Shown here one piece after another: positions 18,090 through 33,897 of a stretch of 64,000 bases of DNA. The position numbers and the translations under genes are program-made. Source of the DNA: Bacteroides sp. AN502(2024) (GTDB lineage Bacteria; Bacteroidota; Bacteroidia; Bacteroidales; Bacteroidaceae). Each line of letters begins with the position of its first letter. The stretch's first letter is position 1. The DNA lies in contig NZ_JBGFSP010000012.1 in the NCBI RefSeq assembly GCF_041227145.1, positions 62,001-126,000 on the forward strand, given 5' to 3'. Under the pieces are notes generated by a model that was given only the letters and a program-made list of their open reading frames with translations, was not told the origin of the DNA and ran no database searches.

Positions 18090-18998
18090 ATGGGAAACTT
18101 TATCAATCCGTTTACGGATGTAGGATTTAAAAAGATATTCGGGCAGGAGATAACGAAAGACTTGTTGATCGATTTCTTAAACGGATTGCTTGTGAACGAG
18201 AAGTGTATCACCGATATAACCTTTCTGGACAAGGAATTGCTTCCGGAATACATGGGAGACAGAGGGGTTATCTATGACATTTATTGTACGACGGAAAACG
18301 GTGAACAACTGGTTGTCGAGATGCAGAACAAGCAGCAGACGAACTTTAAGGAGCGTGCCCTTTTTTACCTCTCCCATACCATTGCCCGTCAGGGAGAGCG
18401 GGGTATTTTCTGGAAGTTTGACTTGAAAGCGGTGTACGGCGTGTTTTTCTTGAACTTCAGTCTGCCCAACGGTTCCCACAAACTGCGTACGGATGTGGTA
18501 TTGACCGACCGGGACACGCATGAGACATTCTCAGACAAGTTGCGCTTTATCTTTATCGAACTCCCGTCTTTCAACAAGGAGGAGTCGGAATGTGATACGG
18601 ATTTTGAACGTTGGATTTATGTATTGAAGAACATGGAAACATTGAAAAGAATGCCTTTCAAGGCACGGAAATCAGTCTTCGAGAAGTTGGAAAAGATTGT
18701 CGATATCGCTTCCCTGAGCAAAGAAGAACGCATGAAATACGATGAGAGCATCAAAGTGTTTCGTGACCAGCTGGTTACCATTTCGTTTGCGAAAGAGGAA
18801 GGCATGAAGAAGGGGATAGAGATAGGGATGAAGAAAGGCATAGAGAAAGGCATGAAGAAAGGTGTAGAAAAAGGCATAGAAAAAGGCATGAAGAAAAAGA
18901 GCCAGGAAATAGCTCGTAATCTGAAGGAACTAGGTGTCCCCGCTGCCACTATCTCGCAAGCTTCCGGACTTTCCTTAGATGAAATTGAAAGAATCTGA
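17974..18998 (+). repeat. Rpn repeat unit, inverted relative to 1-945
   Basis: The sequence starting AGAACTGTTTTAGTTAAAAA at 17974 matches the reverse complement of the left window edge (from 945 back to 1). It includes about 115 bases upstream of the gene. The two copies point away from each other and enclose about 17 kb with the IS, array module 1 and the fimbrial operon. Confidence 0.85.
18090..18998 (+). CDS. Rpn-family recombination-promoting nuclease/putative transposase
   Basis: A 302-residue PD-(D/E)XK protein of the PDDEXK_2 group. It has MGNFINPFTDVGFKKIFGQ at the N-terminus and the nuclease motif GVIYDIYC...QLVVEMQNKQQ (D then ExQ), followed by the helical FKERALFYLSHTIARQ. The C-terminal linker (about residues 232-270) is a run of Gly-Met/Ile-Glu/Lys-Lys repeats, longer than in the broken copy. 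It is followed by an LGVPAATISQASGLS helix-turn-helix-like end. Rpn proteins have been linked to recA-independent recombination. Linker length variation is a known feature of the family and is seen directly here. Confidence 0.85.
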   Translation: MGNFINPFTDVGFKKIFGQEITKDLLIDFLNGLLVNEKCITDITFLDKELLPEYMGDRGVIYDIYCTTENGEQLVVEMQNKQQTNFKERALFYLSHTIARQGERGIFWKFDLKAVYGVFFLNFSLPNGSHKLRTDVVLTDRDTHETFSDKLRFIFIELPSFNKEESECDTDFERWIYVLKNMETLKRMPFKARKSVFEKLEKIVDIASLSKEERMKYDESIKVFRDQLVTISFAKEEGMKKGIEIGMKKGIEKGMKKGVEKGIEKGMKKKSQEIARNLKELGVPAATISQASGLSLDEIERI

Positions 18999-19138: not shown

Positions 19139-19360
19139 CTCTTGATAAGAGATGCATTACACCCTGCAAAATTACAAATAAAATTTATATATCAATAAAA
19201 TATTTAATAATAATTGATGGGGTTATACAGCTCTCTCACACGTAAAAATGAAAATCCTCTTTCAACCTATCACCGTCATCCTGAAACTCTTTATTCATCG
19301 TATTTACAGAGCGGTGATAGGTTGTTGCTAACCTATCACCCATATCTGTCACCTATCACC
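19139..19360 (+). repeat. Left arm of repeat-array module 2
   Basis: The outermost 20 bases CTCTTGATAAGAGATGCATT recur perfectly inverted at 19817-19836. Then comes a block with TCTCTCAC and CCTCTTTCAACCTATCACCG. After about 40 unconserved bases follows a cluster GGTGATAGG, CCTATCACC, CCTATCACC. Motif order and gap match the arms of modules 1 and 3, but the 9-mer is CCTATCACC instead of ATCTGCAAC. Confidence 0.8.
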
Positions 19361-19416
19361 TGGACAAATGTATATTTATCCTATATGTAAATAGATGTTT
19401 CAACATTACGTTGCAG

Positions 19417-19580
19417 CTTGAAACAAAGTGTTTCGTGCCTTGAAACAAAGTGTTCAGCGCCTTGGAACAAAGTGTTCAGCGCCTTGGAACAAAGTGTTCA
19501 GCGCCTTTAAAACAAAGTGTTCAGCGCCTTGAAACAAAGTGTTCAGCGCATTGAAACAAAGTGTTTCATCAGTATGAAAC
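19417..19580 (+). repeat. 22-bp repeat array of module 2
   Basis: About seven tandem units with consensus CTTGAAACAAAGTGTTCAGCG, with edge units reading GTGTTTC. It is the same unit as in module 1 but on the opposite strand. Period is 22-23 bp, about two helical turns. Confidence 0.85.
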
Positions 19581-19636
19581 AAAAATTATCCCTTATTAAA
19601 AAGACTGTTTTGCCAGACGCTTTTCAAAAATTAGTC

Positions 19637-19836
19637 GGTGATAGGTGACAGATGAGGTGATAGGTTAGCAACAACCTATCACCATTCTGAAAGTATTATA
19701 GATAGGGCGTTTCAGGACGACGGTGATAGGTTGAAAGAGGATTTTCATTTTTATATGTGAGAGAGTCGTATGGGTCAAGAATTCATCACACTGATATATA
19801 ATCTGTTATCATTAACAATGCATCTCTTATCAAGAG
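19637..19836 (-). repeat. Right arm of repeat-array module 2
   Basis: Inverted copy of 19139-19360. Inner cluster GGTGATAGG x2 and CCTATCACC; outer block CGGTGATAGGTTGAAAGAGG; terminal AATGCATCTCTTATCAAGAG. Confidence 0.8.
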
Positions 19837-20040: not shown

Positions 20041-21411
20041 GTGAAGAATAGAAATAGATGGATCATAGTGTTGGTGATTGCCTGCCTGAGCGTGTCGACC
20101 GTGTATGCTCAAAAGGCTGATTCGTTATTCAGGCAATTCGAAAGGAGATTCGAGTTGCTCGATTCCATCATTAATCACCCTGAACGGCATTCAGCCAATG
20201 CCGGTGCCGCTTTGTCGGATAATAAAATAGTCGCCGACCATTACGACCGGAGGGTCGTGGATTCGGTTATCGATAACAAAGTCGACGCTCGGATCAGCGA
20301 GATGAAGAACGTGACCGGTCTGACTGTGAACGGACAGGTATACGGTCGTCTTGACGAAGGGTTCGGACTGGACGAAGAGGATGCACTGTCACGGTACAAA
20401 GGCAAGATACAGGCTGAGATCCGCTGGAATTTCCTTAAAAGTTCGATCATCAACCGTAAGGGCAAGGCCAATGAAATACGGTTGCAGGGCGACATTCAGC
20501 GTCTCGAATATAAGAGAGAGAACATCGGACGTTGGGTCGCTTTACAGAAAGAACTGTTCCGTAACAGATATGACAGCCTGCTTTGCGGAGTGCTGACCCA
20601 TCGGATTGAGAACCTGACGCTGTTGAGCACCACCCAGTCTTTCCTGCTGATGCAAGGTGGCATATCCAGTGACGATTTACTGAATATTCTGAACGAGAAA
20701 GCCGAGGCGGAACGTCTCATGGCGACCATCATACGCGATTATCCGGCAAGCAGTGACCTTTCGAACCCGAGCGGAATCATCGTAGATATCGATTCCACAC
20801 GGCTTATTTCGTTTATCTGCGAATACAATACCGGTACAAGCACGGTGGAGCTGCGCCGCCGATTACTGGACCAACAGATCAGCAACACCAGCTACTGGAC
20901 CACACTGAACCTGTCGCCGTTCATACGATATTCTTATTATATGCGTCCGAAGATCCCGAACTCATCCAATGTGGACGCCGGGGCAAGCTTTATCATTCCT
21001 TTGACACTCGAAACCGCCAAAAAACGGAAGGCGATGAAAGCCGAACGTGCCGTGATTGATCTTGAACGCGACAGGCTGATAAGAGAGATCACTGAGAATG
21101 TACGGGTGGCATTGCTTGACATAGAGCGTATGAACCGATCCATCGAGGGAGAGGTGAAACGGCTTTCGGAATTGAAAGGCTATCTTTCTGTCAGGCGTGA
21201 AGCGTATGACAATCGCATCGGTGAGTACAACTATCTTTTACGCATGAAGGAATACAACACCTACCTGTTATGCTGCGAACGTCTCCTGTCGTTCAGTTAC
21301 CAACGAGACTGCATGCTGGCATCCCTCCAGGTGTATTTGCCCGATGTGTCCATACTCGATTTCTGTGTGGAGACGCAATTAAAGGCGGATCGTGTTAAAC
21401 CTCTTCAATGA
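20041..21411 (+). CDS. TolC-family outer-membrane efflux/export protein
   Basis: A 456-residue protein starting at GTG (preceded by GGGGAAAA). The signal peptide ends VYAQ-K. Long alpha-helical stretches (for example AERLMATIIRDY and RAVIDLERDRLIREITENVRVALLDIERM) alternate with short beta segments (LNLSPFIRYSYYM and VDAGASFIIPL). This repeats the helix-strand pattern of outer-membrane efflux proteins. It forms the outer-membrane channel. It is 9 bp upstream of a HlyD-like adaptor, giving a complete two-membrane conduit, but no ABC or RND pump is present. The partner is therefore probably the GT2 synthase downstream. Confidence 0.8.
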   Translation: MKNRNRWIIVLVIACLSVSTVYAQKADSLFRQFERRFELLDSIINHPERHSANAGAALSDNKIVADHYDRRVVDSVIDNKVDARISEMKNVTGLTVNGQVYGRLDEGFGLDEEDALSRYKGKIQAEIRWNFLKSSIINRKGKANEIRLQGDIQRLEYKRENIGRWVALQKELFRNRYDSLLCGVLTHRIENLTLLSTTQSFLLMQGGISSDDLLNILNEKAEAERLMATIIRDYPASSDLSNPSGIIVDIDSTRLISFICEYNTGTSTVELRRRLLDQQISNTSYWTTLNLSPFIRYSYYMRPKIPNSSNVDAGASFIIPLTLETAKKRKAMKAERAVIDLERDRLIREITENVRVALLDIERMNRSIEGEVKRLSELKGYLSVRREAYDNRIGEYNYLLRMKEYNTYLLCCERLLSFSYQRDCMLASLQVYLPDVSILDFCVETQLKADRVKPLQ

Positions 21412-21420
21412 CATTGAGCT

Positions 21421-22977
21421 ATGAGAGATTTCAGCTTTTATAAACCCGAGGATAATGACTCCAGCGAGATTGAGAGCATCATCAGGCAGCGCAGACGCAA
21501 GATTGCGCGGCAGCAACTGATCTATACCATCATCCTGCTGATTATCGTTTCGTTGATTTGCGTATGGTTGTATCGCAAGACGGTGTATGCCGAGTTTGAT
21601 GGTTATGTGGCACTTGATATCACGGAATTCCGTAGCGATGAGGATATCTATTTTCTCCGTGCCAACGTGCGTGTGGGCGATCTGGTGCTTCCCGGAGACA
21701 CCCTGTTCTCGTATACCATCGCGGCAAATTTCTTCGACCATACACATAACGATTATGAGCCGGCCATCGTGGCTCGTAACAGGGATATAAAGGTGCAGTA
21801 CGGGCTTGCCCGGCAGGATATAGAAGTGCTGAAGGTCAGGATCGCGGAACTTGAAAAACAACTGGCAACAGAAGACCATAATATACGGTTCGGGCTTAGC
21901 GACAATCACAATAAGCTTCGTACGGAACAGGAACTTGCCGAGGCACGTGAACAGTATAAGGCTCTGCGACGCAAACTGGGAGTGTTGTGGAATGCGGTCA
22001 GCCAGAGCAACAAATCGCTGTCTAAGCTGAACAACAACGGACACGGGTATGTGAGAATCGTGCACATGTATGATTATGAGCTGTTGCAGAAACTCGGATT
22101 GGTCTATTATTCCGTGGCGATGGATTCTGCCCTTGTGACCAAAAAGTATGTACCGGCCAGCTCATTGACGTTGCGGGGGGAGCCTATCATGTCGTTGCAG
22201 AGTCTGAATGCCCGTGATAACAACCTTATTGTGGTGGCCTATGTGCTGCCTGACGATATGAAGTATGTCAATTACCACAGCAAGGCGGAAATCATAGTGA
22301 ACGATGAGATCTCATATACCGGAACGGTCATGATGCTGGGTGCCCGTACCGAAGAAATACCCGGTGAACTACGCAATACATTGTCGCGTGACCACACGGC
22401 AGCCATTGTGATATTTGATATCGATCCCAATCAGGACATCCCTTATTGGTCGTTGTCAGACGGTGTGCCGGTACGCATCCGAATCAATAAGTTCAAAGAC
22501 CGGGAACCCATAGTGGGCGATTACATCATTTATAACACGACCACAGGTGTGTATCCCGAGACATTGATGCACGCGCAGCATAAATGTAGCAAAGACGGAG
22601 ACCATGTCGTGTTGGTGCATCATCATGACAGTGTCCACACTGATAAGGACAGTGTCCGCACGGTCGCGCCGGACTCAACGGTTGTCAAAAATAAGACACC
22701 TGTGACACATCCGTCTGATTTCGTGGCATCAGGAAATGCCACCGGCCCCTACCATATAATTGTGGCAAGCGGACAGGATAAAAGCGGAGCTGAAAGGCAG
22801 GTAAAGATGTTGCGGCTAAGGGGATATAAATATGCAAAGGTGTTCTCTGCCGATGGATATCACCGGGTATCCCTCTGCTCGTATGCGACAAAAGCCGAGG
22901 CGGAGAATGCACAGAAACAATTGATCAAACAAAAAGAGTTCGGCAATGCCTGGATTCTTTGCAAAAGGATAAGATAG
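21421..22977 (+). CDS. HlyD-like membrane fusion protein with C-terminal SPOR domain
   Basis: A 518-residue protein. One inner-membrane helix (LIYTIILLIIVSLICVWLY, about residues 38-56) is followed by a barrel-sandwich half (YAEFDGYVALDI...VRVGDLVLPGDTLF). A coiled coil spans about residues 130-205, and then comes the returning half with LIVVAYVLPDDMKYVNYHSKAEI. A linker of His/Asp/Thr-rich sequence leads to a SPOR-like domain at about 445-518 (YHIIVASGQDKSGAERQVKMLRLRGY...VSLCSYATKAEAENA). The adaptor should bridge inner membrane and TolC. SPOR domains bind glycan strands lacking stem peptides at division septa, so export may be tied to septal wall. The fusion is unusual. Confidence 0.8.
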   Translation: MRDFSFYKPEDNDSSEIESIIRQRRRKIARQQLIYTIILLIIVSLICVWLYRKTVYAEFDGYVALDITEFRSDEDIYFLRANVRVGDLVLPGDTLFSYTIAANFFDHTHNDYEPAIVARNRDIKVQYGLARQDIEVLKVRIAELEKQLATEDHNIRFGLSDNHNKLRTEQELAEAREQYKALRRKLGVLWNAVSQSNKSLSKLNNNGHGYVRIVHMYDYELLQKLGLVYYSVAMDSALVTKKYVPASSLTLRGEPIMSLQSLNARDNNLIVVAYVLPDDMKYVNYHSKAEIIVNDEISYTGTVMMLGARTEEIPGELRNTLSRDHTAAIVIFDIDPNQDIPYWSLSDGVPVRIRINKFKDREPIVGDYIIYNTTTGVYPETLMHAQHKCSKDGDHVVLVHHHDSVHTDKDSVRTVAPDSTVVKNKTPVTHPSDFVASGNATGPYHIIVASGQDKSGAERQVKMLRLRGYKYAKVFSADGYHRVSLCSYATKAEAENAQKQLIKQKEFGNAWILCKRIR

Positions 22978-22980
22978 AAT

Positions 22981-23973
22981 ATGGTACCGTATAGTATAGA
23001 TACTAACAAATTGGGAAGGAGAATCCTGACCATCAAGGGATATGTCGACATCGATGCTACCAAAGAGCTGCGTCTCGAGGACTTCGACATGACATTCATT
23101 GACACTCCGACTCTCTCGTACAATGTCGTTCGTCTGCTGCTGGCTAGGACATCACCTCTGATATCCAAGAAATGTCGTCTGAAGCCGAGGTTCCTCACGG
23201 TTTTCAACCGTAACGACTTCAGCAGTCTGCGCCCCCTGATCGACGGGTTCGCGCAGTCGGCGGTGGATGATGAGGTAACGCTCCGTGCCGAGGATATACT
23301 GCGGAACATCAACAATCTGCATCTTAAGCATGACTATGGTGTTGTCAACACTGAGAACGACTTCTTTATCGAGCTGTGCCGGTATTGTCTTAGCCGTGGT
23401 GTGCTCAATTTTACGGCATCGACCATGATCACGTTGCAGAAGGGACTCTCCGCCGTATATTCGGCCTATGTGGATATTCATGAGACTGTGGGATGCGGCA
23501 ACAACCCCGATGACAAGAACCTCCGGAAGATGGTAGCCTGGTTTTTGGATTCGGGATACATAGAGCCGGTGAAGTTCGTTGAAAGGATACACCTGTGCCC
23601 TGTTTGTCAGAGTTCGGTGTTGTTGTTTTCCGAATGTTGCAGCAAATGTCAGAGCTCCAATATCAGGGAAGAGGATATGATCCACCATTTCAGATGCGCC
23701 AACATATCACCGGAATCGGAATACCAGTATGACGGGGAACTGCGTTGTCCCAAGTGCAAGCATTTCCTGCGGCATATAGGGGTCGACTATGACCGGCCCG
23801 CCAAAGTCTATACCTGCAACGAGTGCGGTGCAACACAGATGCACTCGGGTATGAAGGTGGCATGTGCGGTCTGCGGACATACCACACAACCGTACGCATT
23901 GACCCCTTATGACATTAAGGAATATACATTTACACAAGCCGGGATACAGTTTTTCTGTGCTCATGATATCTGA
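22981..23973 (+). CDS. Multi-zinc-ribbon protein, TackOD1-like
   Basis: A 330-residue cytoplasmic protein; no signal or membrane helix. Residues 1-200 form a mixed alpha/beta region with no motif I can name. The C-terminal third has six cysteine knuckles: CPVC 206-209, CCSKC 219-223, HHFRC 235-239, CPKC 256-259, CNEC 279-282 and CAVC 295-298. It also has LRHIGVDYDRP between them. HHFRC...CPKC...LRHIGVDY is what I know from TackOD1, a metal-binding output domain linked to signalling proteins; the family match is from memory. It sits between adaptor and synthase with 3-bp gaps. It may regulate or scaffold the synthase. Confidence 0.6.
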   Translation: MVPYSIDTNKLGRRILTIKGYVDIDATKELRLEDFDMTFIDTPTLSYNVVRLLLARTSPLISKKCRLKPRFLTVFNRNDFSSLRPLIDGFAQSAVDDEVTLRAEDILRNINNLHLKHDYGVVNTENDFFIELCRYCLSRGVLNFTASTMITLQKGLSAVYSAYVDIHETVGCGNNPDDKNLRKMVAWFLDSGYIEPVKFVERIHLCPVCQSSVLLFSECCSKCQSSNIREEDMIHHFRCANISPESEYQYDGELRCPKCKHFLRHIGVDYDRPAKVYTCNECGATQMHSGMKVACAVCGHTTQPYALTPYDIKEYTFTQAGIQFFCAHDI

Positions 23974-23976
23974 TAT

Positions 23977-25299
23977 ATGATAGACTACGGAGTAGACATA
24001 ATCGATAACATTGTAGAAGGCTTCAGCCGGAACATTACCTGGCAGGTGATGCTTACCACCTACTGGTTCTTGGTATTCGTGGAGTTTCCAAGATACTACC
24101 TGCTTGAAATATGTATCGTGCTATGGCGCAAGTTGACCTATCGAAGTATACGGGAAAAACGGAACGCTGCCCGTAAGCGACTGTATGCCGAGAGGCCGTT
24201 TGTCACTATTCTCGCTCCGGGTAAGAATGAAGGGGCGCATATCTATACACTGGTGCAGTCTCTGAGAGAGCAGACCTATACCAACTATGAGATCATTATT
24301 GTGGACGACGGCTCCGACGATAACTCTCCGCTGATTTGTGAGGATCTTAAGCGGGCAGGATACATCGACCGCTTTATCCATACGAACGTGAGAGGTGGAA
24401 AGGCGAGTGCCGCCAACCTCGGACTTCGTTTTTCATCGGGCAAGTATGTCATACATCTGGATGCCGACACCTCTCTTGATCGTCATGCCATAGAGAACAT
24501 ACTTCTTCCATTTTATTACGGCAAAGACATTAGGGCTGTCGGAGGGGCGGTGAAGGTGCGTAACGCTGACGATACGATATGCAGTTCGCTGCAAGCGCTC
24601 GAATACCTCAAAACCATACAGGTAGGACGGATGGTGACAAACACCCTCGGCATCCTTCATATCATATCCGGGGCTTTCGGGGCTTTCGACCGGAAGGCAC
24701 TTATGCAGGTGGGGGGATGGGACATCGGACCCGGACTGGACGGTGACATCACCCAGAAGTTCCGCAAGATGGGATTTCGTATCTCTTTTGCCGAAAACGC
24801 TGTGGCAATGACCAACGCCCCCACCTCGTGGCGCGCACTGTATCGTCAGCGTCAGCGTTGGAGCAAGTCGCTGGTACGTTTCCGCCTACGCAAGCACCGC
24901 GACGTGTTCATGCCTTACGGCAACTTCTCGTTCTCGAACCTGATTTCCAACCTCGAAGGAATCATGTACGATTTTGTGTTCAATTTTATATGGGTTGTCT
25001 ATGTCGTGATTCTGATTCTGGAGCATCCGGATAAGATTGTGGAGATATTTGCCGTGGGGTATATCATCCGCTTCTTCTTCAATCTTATTGCGTTCTCAAT
25101 CATCATGCTGGTGAGCGAAAGACCTTCGGAAGAGAAACATTTGATTAAATATGTACCACTTTCTACATTCTATACCGGTTATTTCCTGCGTATGGCAAGA
25201 CTGACCGCCCATCTCAAGGAGATATTCTTCTTCTCATCCTATAAGGATGCGTGGAACCCGCGAAAGACATCGGAAGTGGCACAGGTTGAACGAATTTAG
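23977..25299 (+). CDS. Processive family 2 glycosyltransferase (polysaccharide synthase)
   Basis: A 440-residue inner-membrane enzyme. An N-terminal membrane segment (about 20-50) precedes a GT-A domain with DDGSDD (110-115), DADTS (162-166), GLDGD (253-257) and the processive-synthase signature QRQRW (291-295). C-terminal hydrophobic segments FVFNFIWVVYVVILIL and FFFNLIAFSIIMLV form a membrane channel. D,D,D,QxxRW enzymes polymerise and extrude beta-linked sugars (cellulose, hyaluronan, PNAG, alginate). The GLDGD in place of a TED-type motif is a mild departure. Next to it is a nucleotide-sugar dehydrogenase, pointing to a uronic-acid donor. Confidence 0.85.
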   Translation: MIDYGVDIIDNIVEGFSRNITWQVMLTTYWFLVFVEFPRYYLLEICIVLWRKLTYRSIREKRNAARKRLYAERPFVTILAPGKNEGAHIYTLVQSLREQTYTNYEIIIVDDGSDDNSPLICEDLKRAGYIDRFIHTNVRGGKASAANLGLRFSSGKYVIHLDADTSLDRHAIENILLPFYYGKDIRAVGGAVKVRNADDTICSSLQALEYLKTIQVGRMVTNTLGILHIISGAFGAFDRKALMQVGGWDIGPGLDGDITQKFRKMGFRISFAENAVAMTNAPTSWRALYRQRQRWSKSLVRFRLRKHRDVFMPYGNFSFSNLISNLEGIMYDFVFNFIWVVYVVILILEHPDKIVEIFAVGYIIRFFFNLIAFSIIMLVSERPSEEKHLIKYVPLSTFYTGYFLRMARLTAHLKEIFFFSSYKDAWNPRKTSEVAQVERI

Positions 25300-25318
25300 G
25301 AAATAAAACAAAGATAAA

Positions 25319-26755
25319 ATGAATAGCGATTTTATTATCGGTGTTATAGGCCTTGGGTATGTGGGATTTCCTTTGGCCTGCCTATTTGCTGATAAGTATA
25401 AGGTGATTGGATTTGACATGAGCCGGGAGCGTGTGGACGAACTGAATGCCGGACACGACCATACGGCTGAAGTGACAGCCGAATGTCATGCCAAGGCGTT
25501 GGCAAACGGGTTGAAGTGTACGACAGAGTGGGAGGTACTCCGAGCGTGTAATGTATATATCGTGGCGGTACCGACTCCGGTGGATGATCAGCATCACCCC
25601 GATCTTACACCGCTTGAAAAGGCAAGCCGCACAGTCGGGGAGGTGATCTCCAAGGGGGATATCGTGATTTATGAGTCTACCGTATATCCCGGTGCTACCG
25701 AAGATTTCTGCGCACCTATTATCGAAGAAGTATCGGGTCTCAAGTTTAACTCCGATTTCTTTATGGGTTATTCGCCGGAACGTATCAATCCGGGCGACAA
25801 GGACCACCGTGTGGAGAATATACGTAAAATCACGTCAGGCTCCACTCCTGAAATAGCTGAAACCATTGACAGGCTATACAACTCGGTTTTGCTCAACGGT
25901 ACTTTCCGTGCCAGCTCCATCAAGGTGGCGGAGGCGGCTAAGATCATGGAGAACACACAGCGCGACATCAATATCGCCTTTATGAATGAGATGGCGGTTG
26001 TGATGAATGCAATCGGCATAGGTATCTCGGAAGTGATTGAAGCGGCAGGTACCAAATGGAATTTTCTTAAGTTTCAGCCGGGACTGGTCGGAGGTCATTG
26101 CATCGGGGTCGATCCCTATTATTTGATCGACAAGGCAAAGCAAGTGGGTATATATCCAAGACTGACAGCTGAGGCAAGACGTATCAATGAGGCGATGGGT
26201 GGTTACGTGGCCGAAAGGATTATCAAATGTATGACTCTCAACGGAAAAGCGGAGAATAACGCACGGATTCTGCTCCTCGGATTCACATTCAAGGAAAACT
26301 GCCCGGATATAAGAAATACAAAGGTGGTGGAGATATATAAGCGTCTTGCACCATACACGTCATATATTGATGTGCTTGATCCATGGGTTAATCCGGATAT
26401 GGCACAGAAGGAATATGGTATAAAGACCGTAAGTTCGATTGATGGTCTTAGGTACAGTTCCTATGATGCGGTCGTCCATTGTGTGGCGCATGACTGTTTT
26501 AGGGAACTGGATTTTAATTCTTTATGTGCTGAAGATGGAGGGATTGTCTTTGATGCGAAAGGTACTTTACCCCCCCCCTATGATAAATATTTGAATACCA
26601 ATAAGTTATATGATGAATATAATAACTCAAATTTGTTACAAAAAAATGAGAAAAAACAGAAGTTTAACCACAGCGACGGGATTGGTAATCCCGGCACTGA
26701 AAAGTCTGCCTGTAGCAGCCTTGCTGCTTGCGGGCATGACTGCTTGCTCGGATGA
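25319..26755 (+). CDS. UDP-HexNAc-type nucleotide-sugar 6-dehydrogenase
   Basis: A 478-residue frame. The Rossmann motif GVIGLGYVGFPLA opens it. VYIVAVPTPVD and YESTVYPGATED follow, then catalytic Cys261 in GGHCIGVDPYYL, and the C-terminal LLGFTFKENCPDIRNTKV domain. GGHCIGVDPYY is typical of the WecC/TviB/WbpO group that oxidises UDP-HexNAc to the uronic acid; UDP-glucose dehydrogenases usually have GGSCFPKD. The family normally ends at about 420 residues. Here nine C residues (26570-26578) set the frame that adds a 57-residue unrelated tail overlapping the next gene; 8 or 10 C would stop almost at once. The active part lies before the tract. Confidence 0.85.
   Translation: MNSDFIIGVIGLGYVGFPLACLFADKYKVIGFDMSRERVDELNAGHDHTAEVTAECHAKALANGLKCTTEWEVLRACNVYIVAVPTPVDDQHHPDLTPLEKASRTVGEVISKGDIVIYESTVYPGATEDFCAPIIEEVSGLKFNSDFFMGYSPERINPGDKDHRVENIRKITSGSTPEIAETIDRLYNSVLLNGTFRASSIKVAEAAKIMENTQRDINIAFMNEMAVVMNAIGIGISEVIEAAGTKWNFLKFQPGLVGGHCIGVDPYYLIDKAKQVGIYPRLTAEARRINEAMGGYVAERIIKCMTLNGKAENNARILLLGFTFKENCPDIRNTKVVEIYKRLAPYTSYIDVLDPWVNPDMAQKEYGIKTVSSIDGLRYSSYDAVVHCVAHDCFRELDFNSLCAEDGGIVFDAKGTLPPPYDKYLNTNKLYDEYNNSNLLQKNEKKQKFNHSDGIGNPGTEKSACSSLAACGHDCLLG
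26570..26578 (+). repeat. Poly-C tract (C9) near the end of the dehydrogenase gene
   Basis: Nine C residues follow TTTA. In the present length the codons are CCC CCC CCC TAT; with ten the frame ends at CTA TGA; with eight it ends PPPMINI and stop. Such tracts can slip during replication. The change would affect only the C-terminal tail and whether ribosomes run through the start of the next gene at 26646. Confidence 0.75.
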
Positions 26756-28868
26756 TAATATGCCGAGCGGCAACGAGAACGAGCAGGATGTGCTGGAACT
26801 GCAGTCTTCTGCTCTGAATGTAATGACCGACCCATCTAAGATGCCGGCCACAGTGTATAATTATGGATTTGGCAATTCTGTCAAATCGCGTGCGACTGAC
26901 TGGGGATTCACCATGCCTGCCTGCCCCGGTGCCGGTGAGTATGAAAACCTGGACGAGTACGAGAATACTTGGTGGCCCGATTACACAAAAAAGAACTTCA
27001 AGATTACAAAAGATTGCAATCTTGGATTCAACAATGTGGGGCAGACCATGTATATCGCGTCAGGCGCCAAATGGACTATTTCAGGCACTTATACTAATGG
27101 TACCGACCACAACGCCACTATCTACGTGCTGCCGGGCTCTACTCTTGAATTCACCGGTAGCGGCTTTGAATGCCAAGGAGGCGATGCCCACATTACCATC
27201 TACAGCTATGGTACTCTGGCTTTCAACAACGGTGAAAACGAATGTCGTCTTGGTGGCAACATAACCATTTACTCACAGTCTGCAGTAGATCAGATTCCTA
27301 ATCTGAACCTTGCCTGTGAGTTCTCAACGAACGGTGCGTTAAAGGTAAAAAGAGTACATTTCAATAATGCGGCCAATGTATGGATCGGTTGCAAAATCGA
27401 GGCTAAAGAAGAAGTGATCTTCGACAACGAAGCCACATTCCATGTAGGCTATATCAAGTCGCCCAAGATTTCTGTTATGGCAAATCCCACAGTGGTGGTT
27501 CGTGACGGTGGATATATCGAAACCGATGAACTCGACATCAAGAATGTCCAGACTTCAAAAATCTATGCTGAGGCTGGTGAAGTGGCTCTTATCAAGGCAA
27601 ATAACATCCGTGTGAACAACGCCGGTGGTGATAACCTGAAGGGCACATTCGGAAATGTCAACATTGTTTGTGAGAACTGGATTTACGGAGAGCAAACGGA
27701 GTCTACCAAAGAAGGTCTCGGACTGAATGCCAGCGTAAGTCTCAATGAAGAAGTTAACGTGAATATTACGGAATCCGGTGATGAATGCGCTCCTGTTATT
27801 GTAACACCCAAGGATGAAACACCGGATGAAACACCGGAAGTAAAGCCGTCATTGGAAACAATAGCCTCTGTCACCAACGACCACACACATCCTATTTCCG
27901 CAACCTGTATCCAGTTTAACGGAAACAAGGCATACGTGTCATGGCACGAGCGTGGTGCCGGTATTCACGGTTGTGTAGAAGTAGTTGAGAATACTGCCGA
28001 AGGTCTCAAGCTGCTTGCCTATGCAGAGGATCCCAAAACCGACTACAACCACATCCTGTTTGACGGAAATCGTCTACTCACTGTAGGTCATAACGACAAA
28101 CATGCTGTTGTCGGAGAAATCGCACTGGCCAACGGTACGTTCACACAGGGTGAATCTCTCAGCTTCGTCAACCTGAAAGGTAACAAGGTACTTCATGCCG
28201 ACAATCCTGAATTTTATGGCGGTGACGGTAACTGCATCGTCCGCAACGGTGAATATCTTTCAGTTGCTTCTTACGGAGGTCTGCATACTTTGAATTCCGA
28301 CCTTACCCGTATTATGGAAGCTAGAGAAGGTGCTGTCCCGACTACCGGTTCTGCTAAACACCTTTCTCTTGTAGGCGGAAAACTTCTCGAACTCAACCTC
28401 ACTGAACGTGTAAAGGGTGCTACATCTTCACCTGCAGAACTTCGCTTATTTGAAGCGAACGATTATACGTGGAGCAATCCTACCGTAATCGCATCCGATC
28501 TCACCATCGCTCCGGTTGACGGTAAGAACACCATCGCTCTTGACAACGATGGTTCCATGTATGTATGTCTCGGACAAAACGGTGTGAAGAAATACACCGG
28601 TACCTCATGTGTGGCTACTGTTAAGGAAGGCAATGCTCCGGCAAACGGACTTTGCGTTGACGACAAGTATCTGTATGTCGCATTTGGTAAAGGATTGTAT
28701 ATCTATGCAAAGAACGATCTTTCAAAGCCTGTGCTGAAATATACCCATATCGGACGCAACAAGGATGGAAAGACTGTATCTTGTAACTATGTAGCCGTTA
28801 ACGGCGACCTGATTTATCTGGCATACGGTCTTGACGGATATGATGTAATCCGCATGATTAATCGTTAA
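26646..28868 (+). CDS. Large surface lipoprotein, beta-solenoid plus propeller-like
   Basis: A 740-residue lipoprotein (LPVAALLLAGMTAC lipobox); the ATG at 26646 gives the cleanest signal, and an ATG at 26610 is also in frame. Residues about 60-390 have short repeating strands (GAKWTISGTYT, ITIYSYGTLAFNNGE, KVKRVHFNNAANVWIG) like a parallel beta-helix. A DETPDETPEVKPS linker follows. The C-terminal 330 residues have blade-like repeats (ATCIQFNGNKAYVSW, NHILFDGNRLLTVG, NGLCVDDKYLYVAF, NYVAVNGDLIYLAY), suggesting a beta-propeller. It ends the operon. Possibly binds or organises the exported polymer; no catalytic motif is recognised. Confidence 0.7.
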   Translation: MRKNRSLTTATGLVIPALKSLPVAALLLAGMTACSDDNMPSGNENEQDVLELQSSALNVMTDPSKMPATVYNYGFGNSVKSRATDWGFTMPACPGAGEYENLDEYENTWWPDYTKKNFKITKDCNLGFNNVGQTMYIASGAKWTISGTYTNGTDHNATIYVLPGSTLEFTGSGFECQGGDAHITIYSYGTLAFNNGENECRLGGNITIYSQSAVDQIPNLNLACEFSTNGALKVKRVHFNNAANVWIGCKIEAKEEVIFDNEATFHVGYIKSPKISVMANPTVVVRDGGYIETDELDIKNVQTSKIYAEAGEVALIKANNIRVNNAGGDNLKGTFGNVNIVCENWIYGEQTESTKEGLGLNASVSLNEEVNVNITESGDECAPVIVTPKDETPDETPEVKPSLETIASVTNDHTHPISATCIQFNGNKAYVSWHERGAGIHGCVEVVENTAEGLKLLAYAEDPKTDYNHILFDGNRLLTVGHNDKHAVVGEIALANGTFTQGESLSFVNLKGNKVLHADNPEFYGGDGNCIVRNGEYLSVASYGGLHTLNSDLTRIMEAREGAVPTTGSAKHLSLVGGKLLELNLTERVKGATSSPAELRLFEANDYTWSNPTVIASDLTIAPVDGKNTIALDNDGSMYVCLGQNGVKKYTGTSCVATVKEGNAPANGLCVDDKYLYVAFGKGLYIYAKNDLSKPVLKYTHIGRNKDGKTVSCNYVAVNGDLIYLAYGLDGYDVIRMINR

Positions 28869-28893: not shown

Positions 28894-28932
28894 GACGGGG
28901 TAAGTCTATCACGACTTACCCCGTCTTTTTTA
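28894..28932 (+). terminator. Strong intrinsic terminator of the polysaccharide operon
   Basis: A perfect 12-bp stem (GACGGGGTAAGT / ACTTACCCCGTC) with an 8-base loop and a run of seven T. Confidence 0.9.
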
Positions 28933-30257: not shown

Positions 30258-32684
30258 ATGTATACAATGAAGAAATGTAAAACCTATGTATTGTCAGTAC
30301 TACTTTGCACATTCTTTTTCTCGTGTAGTAGTATTGATTTTGAACTGCCCCAAGGCCCTCAGGGAGTTCATGGAAAATCCGCTTATGAAATATGGAAAGA
30401 AGAGGTTGAAGCCGGTCGTATCAACTGGCCCTCCCACCAAGTTGATTTAGTAGACTTTTTAGTTTACATTAAAGGAGAAAAAGGAGACAAAGGAAAAGAC
30501 GGAATGTCTGCATACGATCAATGGAAAGCTTTGATCGCCCAAGGTAATGTCACCAACCCTCATGATTCTTCGCTTATTTGGCCCTCCTCAAGAAATACTG
30601 AAGCTGATTTTTGGGATTTCCTTAGCGGAAGAGACGGACAGTCGCCTCATATTGGCGAAAATGGGAATTGGTATATCGGCAATAAAGATACAGAAATCAA
30701 AGCTATAGGCAAAGATGGGAAGGATGGAATGAATGGAAAAGACGGACTTTCAGCCTATGAATTATGGAAACAATCTGTTGCCGGCGGAAATATAAATTGG
30801 CCTAAATACAAAACAGCAATGGAACACTTCTTTTTATATTTTAAAGGAAAAGATGGTGAAAATGGCATTACTCCACATGTTGGTGAAAATGGTAATTGGT
30901 ACATTGGCAATCATGATACACATATTTCCGCTCGAGGTCAAAAAGGAGAAAAAGGGACTAAAGGAGCATCTGCCTATGAATTATGGGTGAATGATGTCAA
31001 AAATGATAAAATCAAGGACAAAAATAATTCAGCATGGCCCAAAGATAAAATTGCAATGACGGATTTCTACACTTTCCTCAGCGGAACAAATGGTGACAAT
31101 GGAAAATCCGCCTATGAACTATGGAAAGAGATGGTAGTAACGGGCCATATAAATGACCCTGAAAATCAAGGGCAAAAATGGCCTTCTGACAGGATATCGG
31201 AATCTGACTTCTTCGATTATTTAGCCGGAAAAGACGGAATAAACGGAATCAATGGTTTGTCAGCTTATGAACTGTGGAAAAATGACTTAGCCAAACGCTG
31301 TGGTACAATAAACGCACTTATCGATTACAGGAATGGTGGAACATGGGACTGCGAAAAAAATACATTGAATGATTTTTATGATTATCTACGCGGGAAAGAT
31401 GGCAAAGACGGGGAAGATGGTAAAGACGGCAGACCCGGAGAACCTGGCAAACCGGGAGCGGAAGTTACCATCATTAAAGGTATACCTAATGTGATCGCAC
31501 AATATTCCCAATCAGAATATGGTGAATATGTACGCACTACTGATGGTGGTGTACTCTATAAAGTCTACGATGAATCCGGACTAATCGCACCGAATGCTTA
31601 TGTAAAAGGCATGCCGGGTATCAATGCGGATAAAATTTATATGGCTGATGAAAACGGAGAGTTTATTGTACCTAAAGAAGACTTGCCCGAAATACAAGAC
31701 ATCAACTTACGCTGGGGAACGGTAAAAGAGGTAACCATAGCCGGAAAAGCATCACAAGAATCCGCTAAAAACACGTACGTCCCCAATAGGGTACACATGA
31801 GAATGATCCTCCGCGATAATTCAAATCCATTATACGAATACCAGTGTCTATATTTCTATATACAACGAAAAGTAAATCCGGAAGACCCATGGCAGAATAT
31901 CCCTTCTTATTTACCTAATAGTGGTTCAAGAAATTTAGATGCGTATAGAGTCTCAGACAAAAATAATCCCGGCAGTATTTTGTCAGATCAAAAACTGGTT
32001 TCAAGTCATAGTAATAGTTCTAGTAACGGAGTACATTATTACTATATTTATACCTATCGGTTGATGAAAGAAAATTTCGGAAAATTCAAAAACAATCAAT
32101 TCGAATATTGGAATGGAAGTGACGTTTATTACACTGTAAAAGCCAGAGAATCTTATTATGGAGAAACTTACCAATGGAATGGTGTTTGTTTATTAGCTCC
32201 TTATCAAATGGGACCTACATTAAAAACATTAAAATTGAAAACAATGTCAAATGGAGAAGCACTCAGTTTCTCATCTGCCGAAGGTGAATTGGATTTTTCA
32301 AAAATAGACTTTACCAGAATTTACAAATTATCGACCACACGTGCCATTAAAGGGAATGGAATGGATTATGTAGAACCGGTAGCTTATACCGAAGAAGAAG
32401 CCCGTAAACTTAAAATGGCATATATTACATTCAGATATACCTCAACAGCTGGTTTGCAGGAAGCATCAAGTTCCAATAACAAATCTGCTGCGGAAGCTCC
32501 GACTTTCAAAGTATTCGCACCGTTTTTAAATTCATCCGTATATATTGACAATAGCAGTAGTGTATATTTCTATAGATATTATCAAGGCTATCTTCGAAAA
32601 GGAAAGGATGAAAAAACATTTGTTATTGAAAACTATAATAGTTCTTATGAATTGCCCGAAGTACAAGTTATCTATGAAGAATAA
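30258..32684 (+). CDS. Collagen-like Gly-X-Y surface lipoprotein with SAYELWK repeats
   Basis: An 808-residue lipoprotein (LSVLLCTFFFSC lipobox; ATG at 30267 also possible). Six modules of 45-80 residues each open with SAYE(L/I)WK or close variants at residues 41, 84, 165, 238, 283 and 335. They end in an acidic D-F-(Y/F)-x-(Y/F)-L stretch. Between them lie short Gly-X-Y runs: GEKGDKGKDG, GKDGKDGMNGKDG, GQKGEKGTKG, GKDGKDGEDGKDGRPGEPGKPG. ENGNWYIGN occurs twice. The C-terminal 400 residues are a beta-rich domain with no recognised family. Gly-X-Y blocks can form collagen-like triple helices, giving a trimeric stalk. Composition is AT-rich. The OmpA-like gene follows within 5 bp, so the two are probably co-expressed. 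Confidence 0.8.
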   Translation: MYTMKKCKTYVLSVLLCTFFFSCSSIDFELPQGPQGVHGKSAYEIWKEEVEAGRINWPSHQVDLVDFLVYIKGEKGDKGKDGMSAYDQWKALIAQGNVTNPHDSSLIWPSSRNTEADFWDFLSGRDGQSPHIGENGNWYIGNKDTEIKAIGKDGKDGMNGKDGLSAYELWKQSVAGGNINWPKYKTAMEHFFLYFKGKDGENGITPHVGENGNWYIGNHDTHISARGQKGEKGTKGASAYELWVNDVKNDKIKDKNNSAWPKDKIAMTDFYTFLSGTNGDNGKSAYELWKEMVVTGHINDPENQGQKWPSDRISESDFFDYLAGKDGINGINGLSAYELWKNDLAKRCGTINALIDYRNGGTWDCEKNTLNDFYDYLRGKDGKDGEDGKDGRPGEPGKPGAEVTIIKGIPNVIAQYSQSEYGEYVRTTDGGVLYKVYDESGLIAPNAYVKGMPGINADKIYMADENGEFIVPKEDLPEIQDINLRWGTVKEVTIAGKASQESAKNTYVPNRVHMRMILRDNSNPLYEYQCLYFYIQRKVNPEDPWQNIPSYLPNSGSRNLDAYRVSDKNNPGSILSDQKLVSSHSNSSSNGVHYYYIYTYRLMKENFGKFKNNQFEYWNGSDVYYTVKARESYYGETYQWNGVCLLAPYQMGPTLKTLKLKTMSNGEALSFSSAEGELDFSKIDFTRIYKLSTTRAIKGNGMDYVEPVAYTEEEARKLKMAYITFRYTSTAGLQEASSSNNKSAAEAPTFKVFAPFLNSSVYIDNSSSVYFYRYYQGYLRKGKDEKTFVIENYNSSYELPEVQVIYEE

Positions 32685-32688
32685 AAAT

Positions 32689-33897
32689 ATGAAAAATATA
32701 TATATGCATAAAATCTATTTCATGCTATGCTTTATCTCAGTGCTATGTTGGGGCTTACCCGTAAATGCACAAGAAAACGCAAAGGATGGCATAGCCGATG
32801 ATATGAATAAAAAAACGTGGGAAATAGGTATAGGCGCAACCGGACTTCAATTGACACGTTTTAATGTTATTAATTTCCAGACTAATCATAAAGGTGGTTA
32901 TAGCGTAGGTACCAACAAGAAAGATTTTATCTTCGGAGGAAATCTGTATTTTGCCCGTGAACTTAACTCTCATCTTTATCTGGATTTACAGGGTACATTA
33001 GATTACAGTTCCGACCCGGTCCGTAGCGGCAAGGAATCAAGATGGTTAGGTATGGCGGGAGTGGGTCTCCAGTGGCGCATAGGCAACTACTTCCACTCCA
33101 ATTATATTGATCCTTTCTTTCGAATAGGAGCCAACTATATGTACAAGAATTTTGAAGTCGATTATCGTAAAATGGAAGAATTCAATAGTGAACAGATGGG
33201 ATGGAATCTATCCAATGATTACACTAAAGAAGGGAAAGACAAACGAAATCTTATTCCTATTTCATTGGGCACAGGTGTAAATATGTGGCTTAATGACAAC
33301 ATAGGCATAGGACTTCAAGGAGATTACCTCATCATGCCATACAAACATATAGCTAATTCATGGCAGGGAAGCGTACGATTGATGTGGCGCATTGGCGGCA
33401 AATCCTTAAAAAACAAGCCCTCAATTCAATATGTGGAAAAGATCATAGAGAAAGTAATAGAGAAACCTATAATTAAGGAAAAAATTGTAGAAATTCCAAT
33501 TACTCAGTCTAATGTTAATGTCTTATGTGATTTATTCAACAATATTTATTTTGAGTTTGACAAAGCTGAGATAACTCCCCAAGCTGCTATTGTCATTGAT
33601 GAAATTGCTCAACTCATGCTGGTAGATACCAACAAAAGATATCTCATCACGGGATGTACCGATGCAAAGGGATCGTTACAATACAATATAGATTTATCCC
33701 AAAGACGTGCAGACGCTGTAGTCAATGCACTTATAAAGAGAGGGGTTTCCGGTAAAATGTTAAAAGCAAAAGGGGTAGGCTCAAAAATATCTTATGCTTC
33801 TCGGGATGCTTCCAATGAAATACGAGAAGGAGATCGTAAAATTATAGTTCAAATCATTACAAATATGGACTATTGGAATTATATATACCATAAATAA
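32689..33897 (+). CDS. OmpA-family outer-membrane protein
   Basis: A 402-residue protein; I chose the ATG at 32689 because it gives signal peptide KIYFMLCFISVLCWGLPVNAQ (an ATG at 32674 would overlap the previous gene). An N-terminal beta-barrel (WEIGIGATGLQLTRF to VRLMWRIGG) is followed by a Val-Ile-Glu-Lys repeat linker (VEKIIEKVIEKPIIKEKIVE). The C-terminal OmpA peptidoglycan-binding domain has IYFEFDKAEITPQA, ITGCTDAKGS and NIDLSQRRADAVVNAL. It links outer membrane to wall. Neighbouring collagen-like gene suggests a shared surface structure. Confidence 0.85.
   Translation: MKNIYMHKIYFMLCFISVLCWGLPVNAQENAKDGIADDMNKKTWEIGIGATGLQLTRFNVINFQTNHKGGYSVGTNKKDFIFGGNLYFARELNSHLYLDLQGTLDYSSDPVRSGKESRWLGMAGVGLQWRIGNYFHSNYIDPFFRIGANYMYKNFEVDYRKMEEFNSEQMGWNLSNDYTKEGKDKRNLIPISLGTGVNMWLNDNIGIGLQGDYLIMPYKHIANSWQGSVRLMWRIGGKSLKNKPSIQYVEKIIEKVIEKPIIKEKIVEIPITQSNVNVLCDLFNNIYFEFDKAEITPQAAIVIDEIAQLMLVDTNKRYLITGCTDAKGSLQYNIDLSQRRADAVVNALIKRGVSGKMLKAKGVGSKISYASRDASNEIREGDRKIIVQIITNMDYWNYIYHK

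Follow-up and report, generated by a model that had tools for sequence, protein, structure and literature searches.

A TackOD1-linked glycosyltransferase operon in Bacteroides and its predicted role in exopolysaccharide export

In the alginate locus a synthase (Alg8), a HlyD-like partner (Alg44) and a dehydrogenase (AlgD) are encoded together. Here we compare this and other described machines with a six-gene operon located at positions 20041–28868, on the plus strand, of a 64,000-nucleotide stretch (the window) of the genome of Bacteroides sp. AN502(2024) (contig NZ_JBGFSP010000012.1, positions 62,001 to 126,000). We read it, with a probability of about 0.6, as a machine for synthase-dependent exopolysaccharide production that exports through HlyD and TolC and is under the control of the zinc-ribbon protein TackOD1. 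Protein families, gene order, linkage, the hairpin and the decay of a domain can be read from the sequence; the chemistry of the polymer, its way out, contact between TackOD1 and the synthase, c-di-GMP (cyclic di-GMP) binding by TackOD1 relatives and the part played by the lipoprotein are inferred. The closest published model is that of the cyanobacterial XcsAB-TolC cellulose system, likewise a synthase, a HlyD-like adaptor and a TolC-type outer-membrane exit, which lacks experimental validation according to the relevant passages of a review (PMC12430437). The BgsBA mixed-linkage glucan system also has a synthase and a HlyD-like partner in a small operon, but there c-di-GMP binds the C-terminus of BgsA itself; TolC occurs nowhere in the paper, and TackOD1 is not named in the passages describing the system (PMC9495663). 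In the Pel and cellulose machines PelD and BcsE have a GGDEF fold without catalytic motif, as do relatives of the TackOD1 protein studied here, and PelD binds c-di-GMP through an RxxD motif; the text concerned names no zinc ribbon for either (PMC8461298). More generally, synthase-dependent systems are described, in the portion of PMC9601211 on the subject, with a tetratricopeptide repeat (TPR) protein and a 16–18-stranded barrel.

The Bacteroides operon differs from each of these. With XcsAB-TolC it shares a HlyD-like adaptor, a TolC-type channel (both recognised through members of their families) and a family 2 glycosyltransferase (GT2), but the GT2 is nearest to PgaC and is not a cellulose synthase with a PilZ domain; moreover, synthase, adaptor and channel stand in one operon with TackOD1 adjoining, whereas the XcsAB-TolC passages name no TackOD1 (PMC12430437). 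A first-pass annotation of the window had seen a parallel to alginate systems, with TolC in place of AlgE. The locus does join a synthase, a HlyD-like partner and a dehydrogenase, and the TolC-type exit held, although not as a novelty, XcsAB-TolC preceding it as a published model. The parallel itself broke down: the exit protein is of the OEP family and not an AlgE barrel, the adaptor has no PilZ domain, there is no TPR protein, the dehydrogenase is of the UDP-N-acetylhexosamine (UDP-HexNAc) class and not the GDP-mannose class of AlgD, and the synthase is nearest to PgaC. On exit protein, PilZ and dehydrogenase class we rejected membership in the alginate type. As for the poly-N-acetylglucosamine (PNAG) system PgaABCD, it provides the nearest synthase model, yet the match lies under the PNAG equivalog cut-off, and the other five operon proteins include no porin/TPR, deacetylase or PgaD family. 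By the features tested, then, the operon belongs with none of the alginate, PNAG and cellulose systems. The six proteins gave no ABC, Wzx/Wzy, PilZ or TPR family match (Pfam, up to E 0.1), and no ABC or Wzy family appeared in 20 other window genes scanned; the first-pass annotation had likewise noted no ABC or Wzy genes. The operon has an OEP-type protein and no TPR match in place of the TPR-plus-barrel arrangement, and no ABC partner of the kind that type I secretion uses. It would work as synthase-dependent exopolysaccharide systems do, the exit being a tripartite HlyD/TolC one. No description of this gene set was found in open-licence PubMed Central (PMC) papers, in line with the earlier remark that no described Bacteroides exopolysaccharide is known to have it.

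TackOD1 and its synthase

Six open reading frames (ORFs) lie head to tail, all on the plus strand, exactly where the first-pass annotation had placed its operon, and the operon-type gene set recurs in Bacteroidota, across which that annotation had proposed to search for the neighbourhood. The third gene (22981–23973, +) encodes a 330-aa protein consisting of an N-terminal alpha/beta part and a TackOD1 domain (PF18551; 6.7e-42, 143.6 bits against a cut-off of 32), most of whose CXXC/HXXC Cys and His ligands are invariant or nearly so across 29 aligned proteins. The zinc ribbon had been recognised before; its identity as TackOD1, a domain of unknown function, had been missed, as had the pairing with the synthase across phyla, the link to degenerate GGDEF domains and the SPOR domain of the adaptor. 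The fourth gene (23977–25299, +) encodes a 440-aa GT2 (Glycos_transf_2, 5.6e-25) with three to four hydrophobic segments, in which the D, DxD, D and QxxRW (QRQRW) motifs align with those of PgaC and IcaA; it is thus a membrane-embedded processive GT2, the "QxxRW synthase" of the earlier reading. Among NCBIfam models it is closest to PgaC_IcaA (160.4 bits, against the cut-off of 422.3 of this equivalog model, TIGR03937), no cellulose synthase model being among the matches listed for it (best 25 models), and it has no PilZ domain match.

Loci from named genomes were collected with a pattern that matched 469 stretches, 449 of which encode a TackOD1 relative; the best 80, ranked by likeness to the window, were kept, and this sample therefore leans to Bacteroidales. 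In a phylum-wide draw, with up to eight first-look candidates scored per genome, TackOD1 exceeded the cut-off in 12 of 392 genomes, ten of which were used for gene context together with three extra genomes (of the other two, one is the window itself and one, G251, was left out). Plasmids contributed 17 TackOD1 records, 12 examined for context and seven in the scored set. The scored set amounts to 100 loci, two of them repeating a contig and three ending at a contig edge where the synthase would be expected; the gene-context comparison excludes the short loci L001–L006 and L094–L111.

A GT2 follows TackOD1 immediately downstream in 83 of the 97 loci that have a neighbour on the contig, and HlyD stands directly upstream in 70 of the 100. 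By profile, and counting only co-oriented genes within 9 kb, 80 of 86 operon-type loci have HlyD, 69 have TolC, 53 have a member of the lipoprotein family and 45 have the dehydrogenase; channels in L112, L116 and L121 that the TolC profile missed were recovered by Pfam OEP. The converse test agrees: when 661 plasmid records are ranked by their match to the window GT2, each of the top 14 is a record with TackOD1, and 16 of the 17 that have TackOD1 appear among the matches listed (best 40 of 661). In a GT2 tree, 24 of 25 TackOD1-linked GT2s form one group (97/93), with a single S. medicae GT2 nested inside; the Halorussus GT2 lies outside this group, at the end of a long branch. These results tie TackOD1 to this GT2 synthase. 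Within the genus TackOD1 exceeds the cut-off in just two of 36 other genomes; the operon is therefore sporadic there, by loss or transfer, and the nearest named relatives of the window's TackOD1 gene (best 80 of 449) belong to Bacteroides sp. metagenome-assembled genomes.

Two archaeal records may be added. On a Halorussus halophilus plasmid (L146, 4183–7144) a small TackOD1 gene is followed, as annotated, by DUF2334 and GT2; neither HlyD nor TolC is annotated, and the row may represent the same two enzymes in a cell that has no outer membrane. Natronococcus has TackOD1 and no annotated glycosyltransferase within the 14 kb examined.

Dehydrogenase, lipoprotein and the polymer

Under the reading preferred here, the GT2 would polymerise a UDP-sugar and extrude the chain through the inner membrane; which sugar is suggested by the fifth gene (25319–26755, +; 478 aa). 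Its product best matches the models of TviB and UDP-ManNAc dehydrogenases: it scores 492.6 bits with NF011729 (TviB), under the equivalog cut-off of 592, exceeds the NDP-sugDHase subfamily cut-off (TIGR03026, 386 bits over 189.8) and has the invariant Cys261 in GGHCIGVDPY. The class of UDP-HexNAc 6-dehydrogenase, TviB being the nearest, agrees with the earlier call, and in operons that have it the enzyme most likely supplies UDP-N-acetylhexosaminuronic acid. The ORF runs about 48 aa beyond the usual C-terminus and overlaps the start of the lipoprotein gene. A run of nine C lies near its 3' end (26570–26578); we considered phase variation through this run and rejected it, as homologues end about ten residues later and a slip would alter only the tail, which is probably neutral.

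The main alternative, less probable but by no means negligible, is that the product is a neutral or partly deacetylated N-acetylhexosamine polymer resembling PNAG, the dehydrogenase being accessory or serving another pathway. The proximity of the synthase to PgaC_IcaA among NCBIfam models speaks for it, and so does the patchy occurrence of the dehydrogenase: of the 65 Bacteroidota loci that could be resolved, the window among them, 43 have it and 22 lack it. In the close relative L008 no such gene lies between GT2 and lipoprotein. (This set leaves out eight unresolved loci, two with a GT2 ORF of less than 400 aa, seven plasmid loci and two repeated contigs.) On the synthase tree its presence changes ten times, at least nine of them forced by supported branches, versus 18 in shuffles. 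Of 18 genomes without a linked dehydrogenase, six reach just 69 to 354 bits with the dehydrogenase profile, whereas 12, that of L008 included, have a copy elsewhere of at least 534 bits (the window genome itself has a second copy, at 634 bits). That dozen argues against a PNAG-like product, as do the 43 loci that keep the gene near the synthase, its presence at another position in a distant Bacteroidota family (L112–L114) and the lack of a deacetylase family match in the operon proteins. The "amino-uronate" of the first-pass annotation is therefore supported in part by the 43 of 65 loci and weakened by the forced changes and the six genomes with nothing above 354 bits. HexNAc-uronic acid is plausible for the polymer of this operon and, given the patchiness of the gene among loci, not a fixed feature of the machine.

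The sixth gene (26646–28868, +; 740 aa), whose start is most likely 26646 and not 26610, encodes a putative surface lipoprotein with an N-terminal beta-helix and a C-terminal beta-propeller; its probable role is to hold or bind the polymer on the surface of the cell. Its profile also matched 4wa0, a "possible adhesin" (9.1e-5), and tapirin (0.0093), weak matches that possibly reflect repeat composition and were not used.

The TackOD1 protein and its lost domain

The name TackOD1 was given to an output domain found in response regulators of archaea; its functions "remain obscure" in the wording of the passage concerned (PMC5847659), the only article among open-licence PMC full texts in which the name occurs. 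The window copy lacks a C-terminal domain of GGDEF fold found in relatives of about 470 aa; the fold was seen in one structure model, by VIA only. No match at E ≤ 0.001 came from a Foldseek search with that model. The N-terminal alpha/beta part (model residues 1 to about 115), which was barely covered, may be receiver-like. In Gammaproteobacteria the domain that follows TackOD1 is a degenerate GGDEF: of 115 proteins, 112 retain RxxD, the motif of PelD, and none has the catalytic motif. RxxD is present in 0 of 77 such domains of the window-like set, two of 11 from other Bacteroidota and none of four from alphaproteobacteria. These counts exclude five of 120 gamma-set proteins below 400 aa and 43 of 120 window-like proteins below 440 aa, and the two group labels rest on named members and the query. 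In the window's own clade the whole domain has gone from TackOD1, and the 330-aa copy accordingly has no GGDEF-fold domain with RxxD such as a receptor of the PelD/BcsE type would use. At the other extreme, four Bacteroides records (L063–L065, L073) have TackOD1 proteins of 682–740 aa with extra sequence.

On this comparison TackOD1 would be a cytoplasmic zinc-ribbon subunit that sits on the synthase or controls it. Its PelD/BcsE-like degenerate GGDEF domain in Gammaproteobacteria is predicted to be a c-di-GMP-binding one; the Bacteroidales counterpart has lost the binding motif, and the window's clade lacks the domain altogether. Alternatively, TackOD1 could be no synthase subunit but a regulator of the operon, binding nucleic acid or giving transcriptional output; such a role would fit the archaeal response-regulator origin of the name (PMC5847659, in the passage quoted above) and the 14 exceptions among the 97 loci, in which no synthase is labelled. 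These (L067–L069, L074–L076, L079–L086) share one Bacteroidales context, with homologues of FAD synthetase, a DUF3109 protein, a TackOD1 of 481–513 aa and a single receiver-domain protein in 14 of 14 (Pfam names taken from L068). We consider this role unlikely, since TackOD1 adjoins the synthase across phyla and its relatives are fused to the GGDEF-type fold of PelD and BcsE, which act on synthase complexes.

A broader reading is that one class of polysaccharide machines (TackOD1, GT2, HlyD and often TolC) stands apart, crosses phyla and is defined by TackOD1 as its control subunit. This reading is more tentative, and for all its parts jointly we put it a little below even odds. In it, gammaproteobacterial TackOD1 proteins would be PelD-like c-di-GMP receptors, catalytically dead and often annotated "diguanylate cyclase"; in Bacteroidota the receptor domain would have decayed and other inputs taken over, for example a histidine kinase (one is co-oriented within 9 kb in 25 of 63 loci), the window lineage having dropped the domain; and the polymer would exit by a TolC-type channel, which some lineages have joined to a glycosidase-like domain. 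The new elements are the pairing of TackOD1 with the synthase, its spread across phyla and the decay of the PelD-like receptor domain in Bacteroidota. If the reading is true, a domain whose role has been called obscure would gain a function, a widespread class of exopolysaccharide machines would join the few that have been studied, and many proteins of vibrios and their relatives now named "diguanylate cyclase" would be predicted c-di-GMP receptors and not cyclases.

Export route and surroundings of the operon

The first gene (20041–21411, +; 456 aa, GTG start) encodes the TolC-like protein, with a hydrophobic N-terminus, and the second (21421–22977, +; 518 aa) the HlyD-like adaptor. The former has no OEP match of its own up to E 0.1; in its family Pfam OEP (PF02321) is found at E ≤ 0.01 in 20 of 40 aligned members (best 9.3e-11). 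The adaptor matches HlyD_3 at E 0.022 and has one N-terminal hydrophobic segment (33–51) and a C-terminal SPOR domain (5.6e-11); among the 34 members of its family HlyD_3 occurs in eight (E ≤ 0.01), SPOR in eight and LysM in four. Neither family profile has a credible relative among solved structures, so that both assignments, which agree with the first-pass annotation, rest on Pfam matches of family members and not on those of the window copies. The adaptor would link the GT2 to the channel, and its SPOR domain may anchor it in peptidoglycan.

Most known roles of the TolC and HlyD families are in the export of proteins and drugs, but that the pair exports a protein or small molecule here (type I-like or efflux), the synthase using another exit, is improbable, with no ABC, RND or MFS partner among the operon proteins, HlyD directly upstream of TackOD1 in 70 of 100 loci and six relatives in which the channel has a fused glycosidase-like domain. 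These six channel proteins (L115–L117, L119–L121, other Bacteroidota; 673–715 aa) are homologous in their C-terminal domain, which has the motif G[IV]HLD[VI]EPH; OEP matches in all but L115, and a glycosidase family only in L116 (GH18, 3.9e-5, 23.9 bits, under the cut-off of 29.6), and we call the domain no more than glycosidase-like. Hydrolases accompany other synthase systems, and the fusion points to a glycan cargo and fits the passage of a polysaccharide. If the reading of the operon is true, a single operon would allow a test of the suggestion, so far unproven, that polysaccharides leave through TolC.

The operon closes with a strong intrinsic-terminator-like hairpin (28894–28925, +; 13 pairs, 8 GC, TTTTTT) 25 nt past the last stop codon, the longest of 16 such sites in the whole stretch, versus 7.7 expected. 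Its genes have 46–50% GC, versus 42.7% for the window, which lies within one contig of a 4.8-Mb genome in 15 contigs. A fimbrial cluster lies upstream; the flanking genes encode a PDDEXK_2 protein before the operon and an AraC-type regulator after it, and downstream scanned genes include an OmpA-family gene, enolase and other household genes. The PDDEXK_2 nuclease-family protein (18090–18998, just 5' of the operon) has a repeated KKGxEKGM-type tail. Between it and the first operon gene, at 19225–19771, is an inverted repeat with two 116-nt arms, 86% complementary, around a repeat array (GAAACAAAGTGTT..., 22–23-nt spacing); at least 79 matching pieces occur in its own genome (40 of 94 first-look candidates scored), and the element is therefore a dispersed repeat resembling a miniature inverted-repeat transposable element. 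Beyond the operon, at 30258–33897, an 808-aa protein with collagen-like GxxG stretches overlaps an ORF whose product has an OmpA domain at its C-terminus; the two may form a surface-fibre pair.

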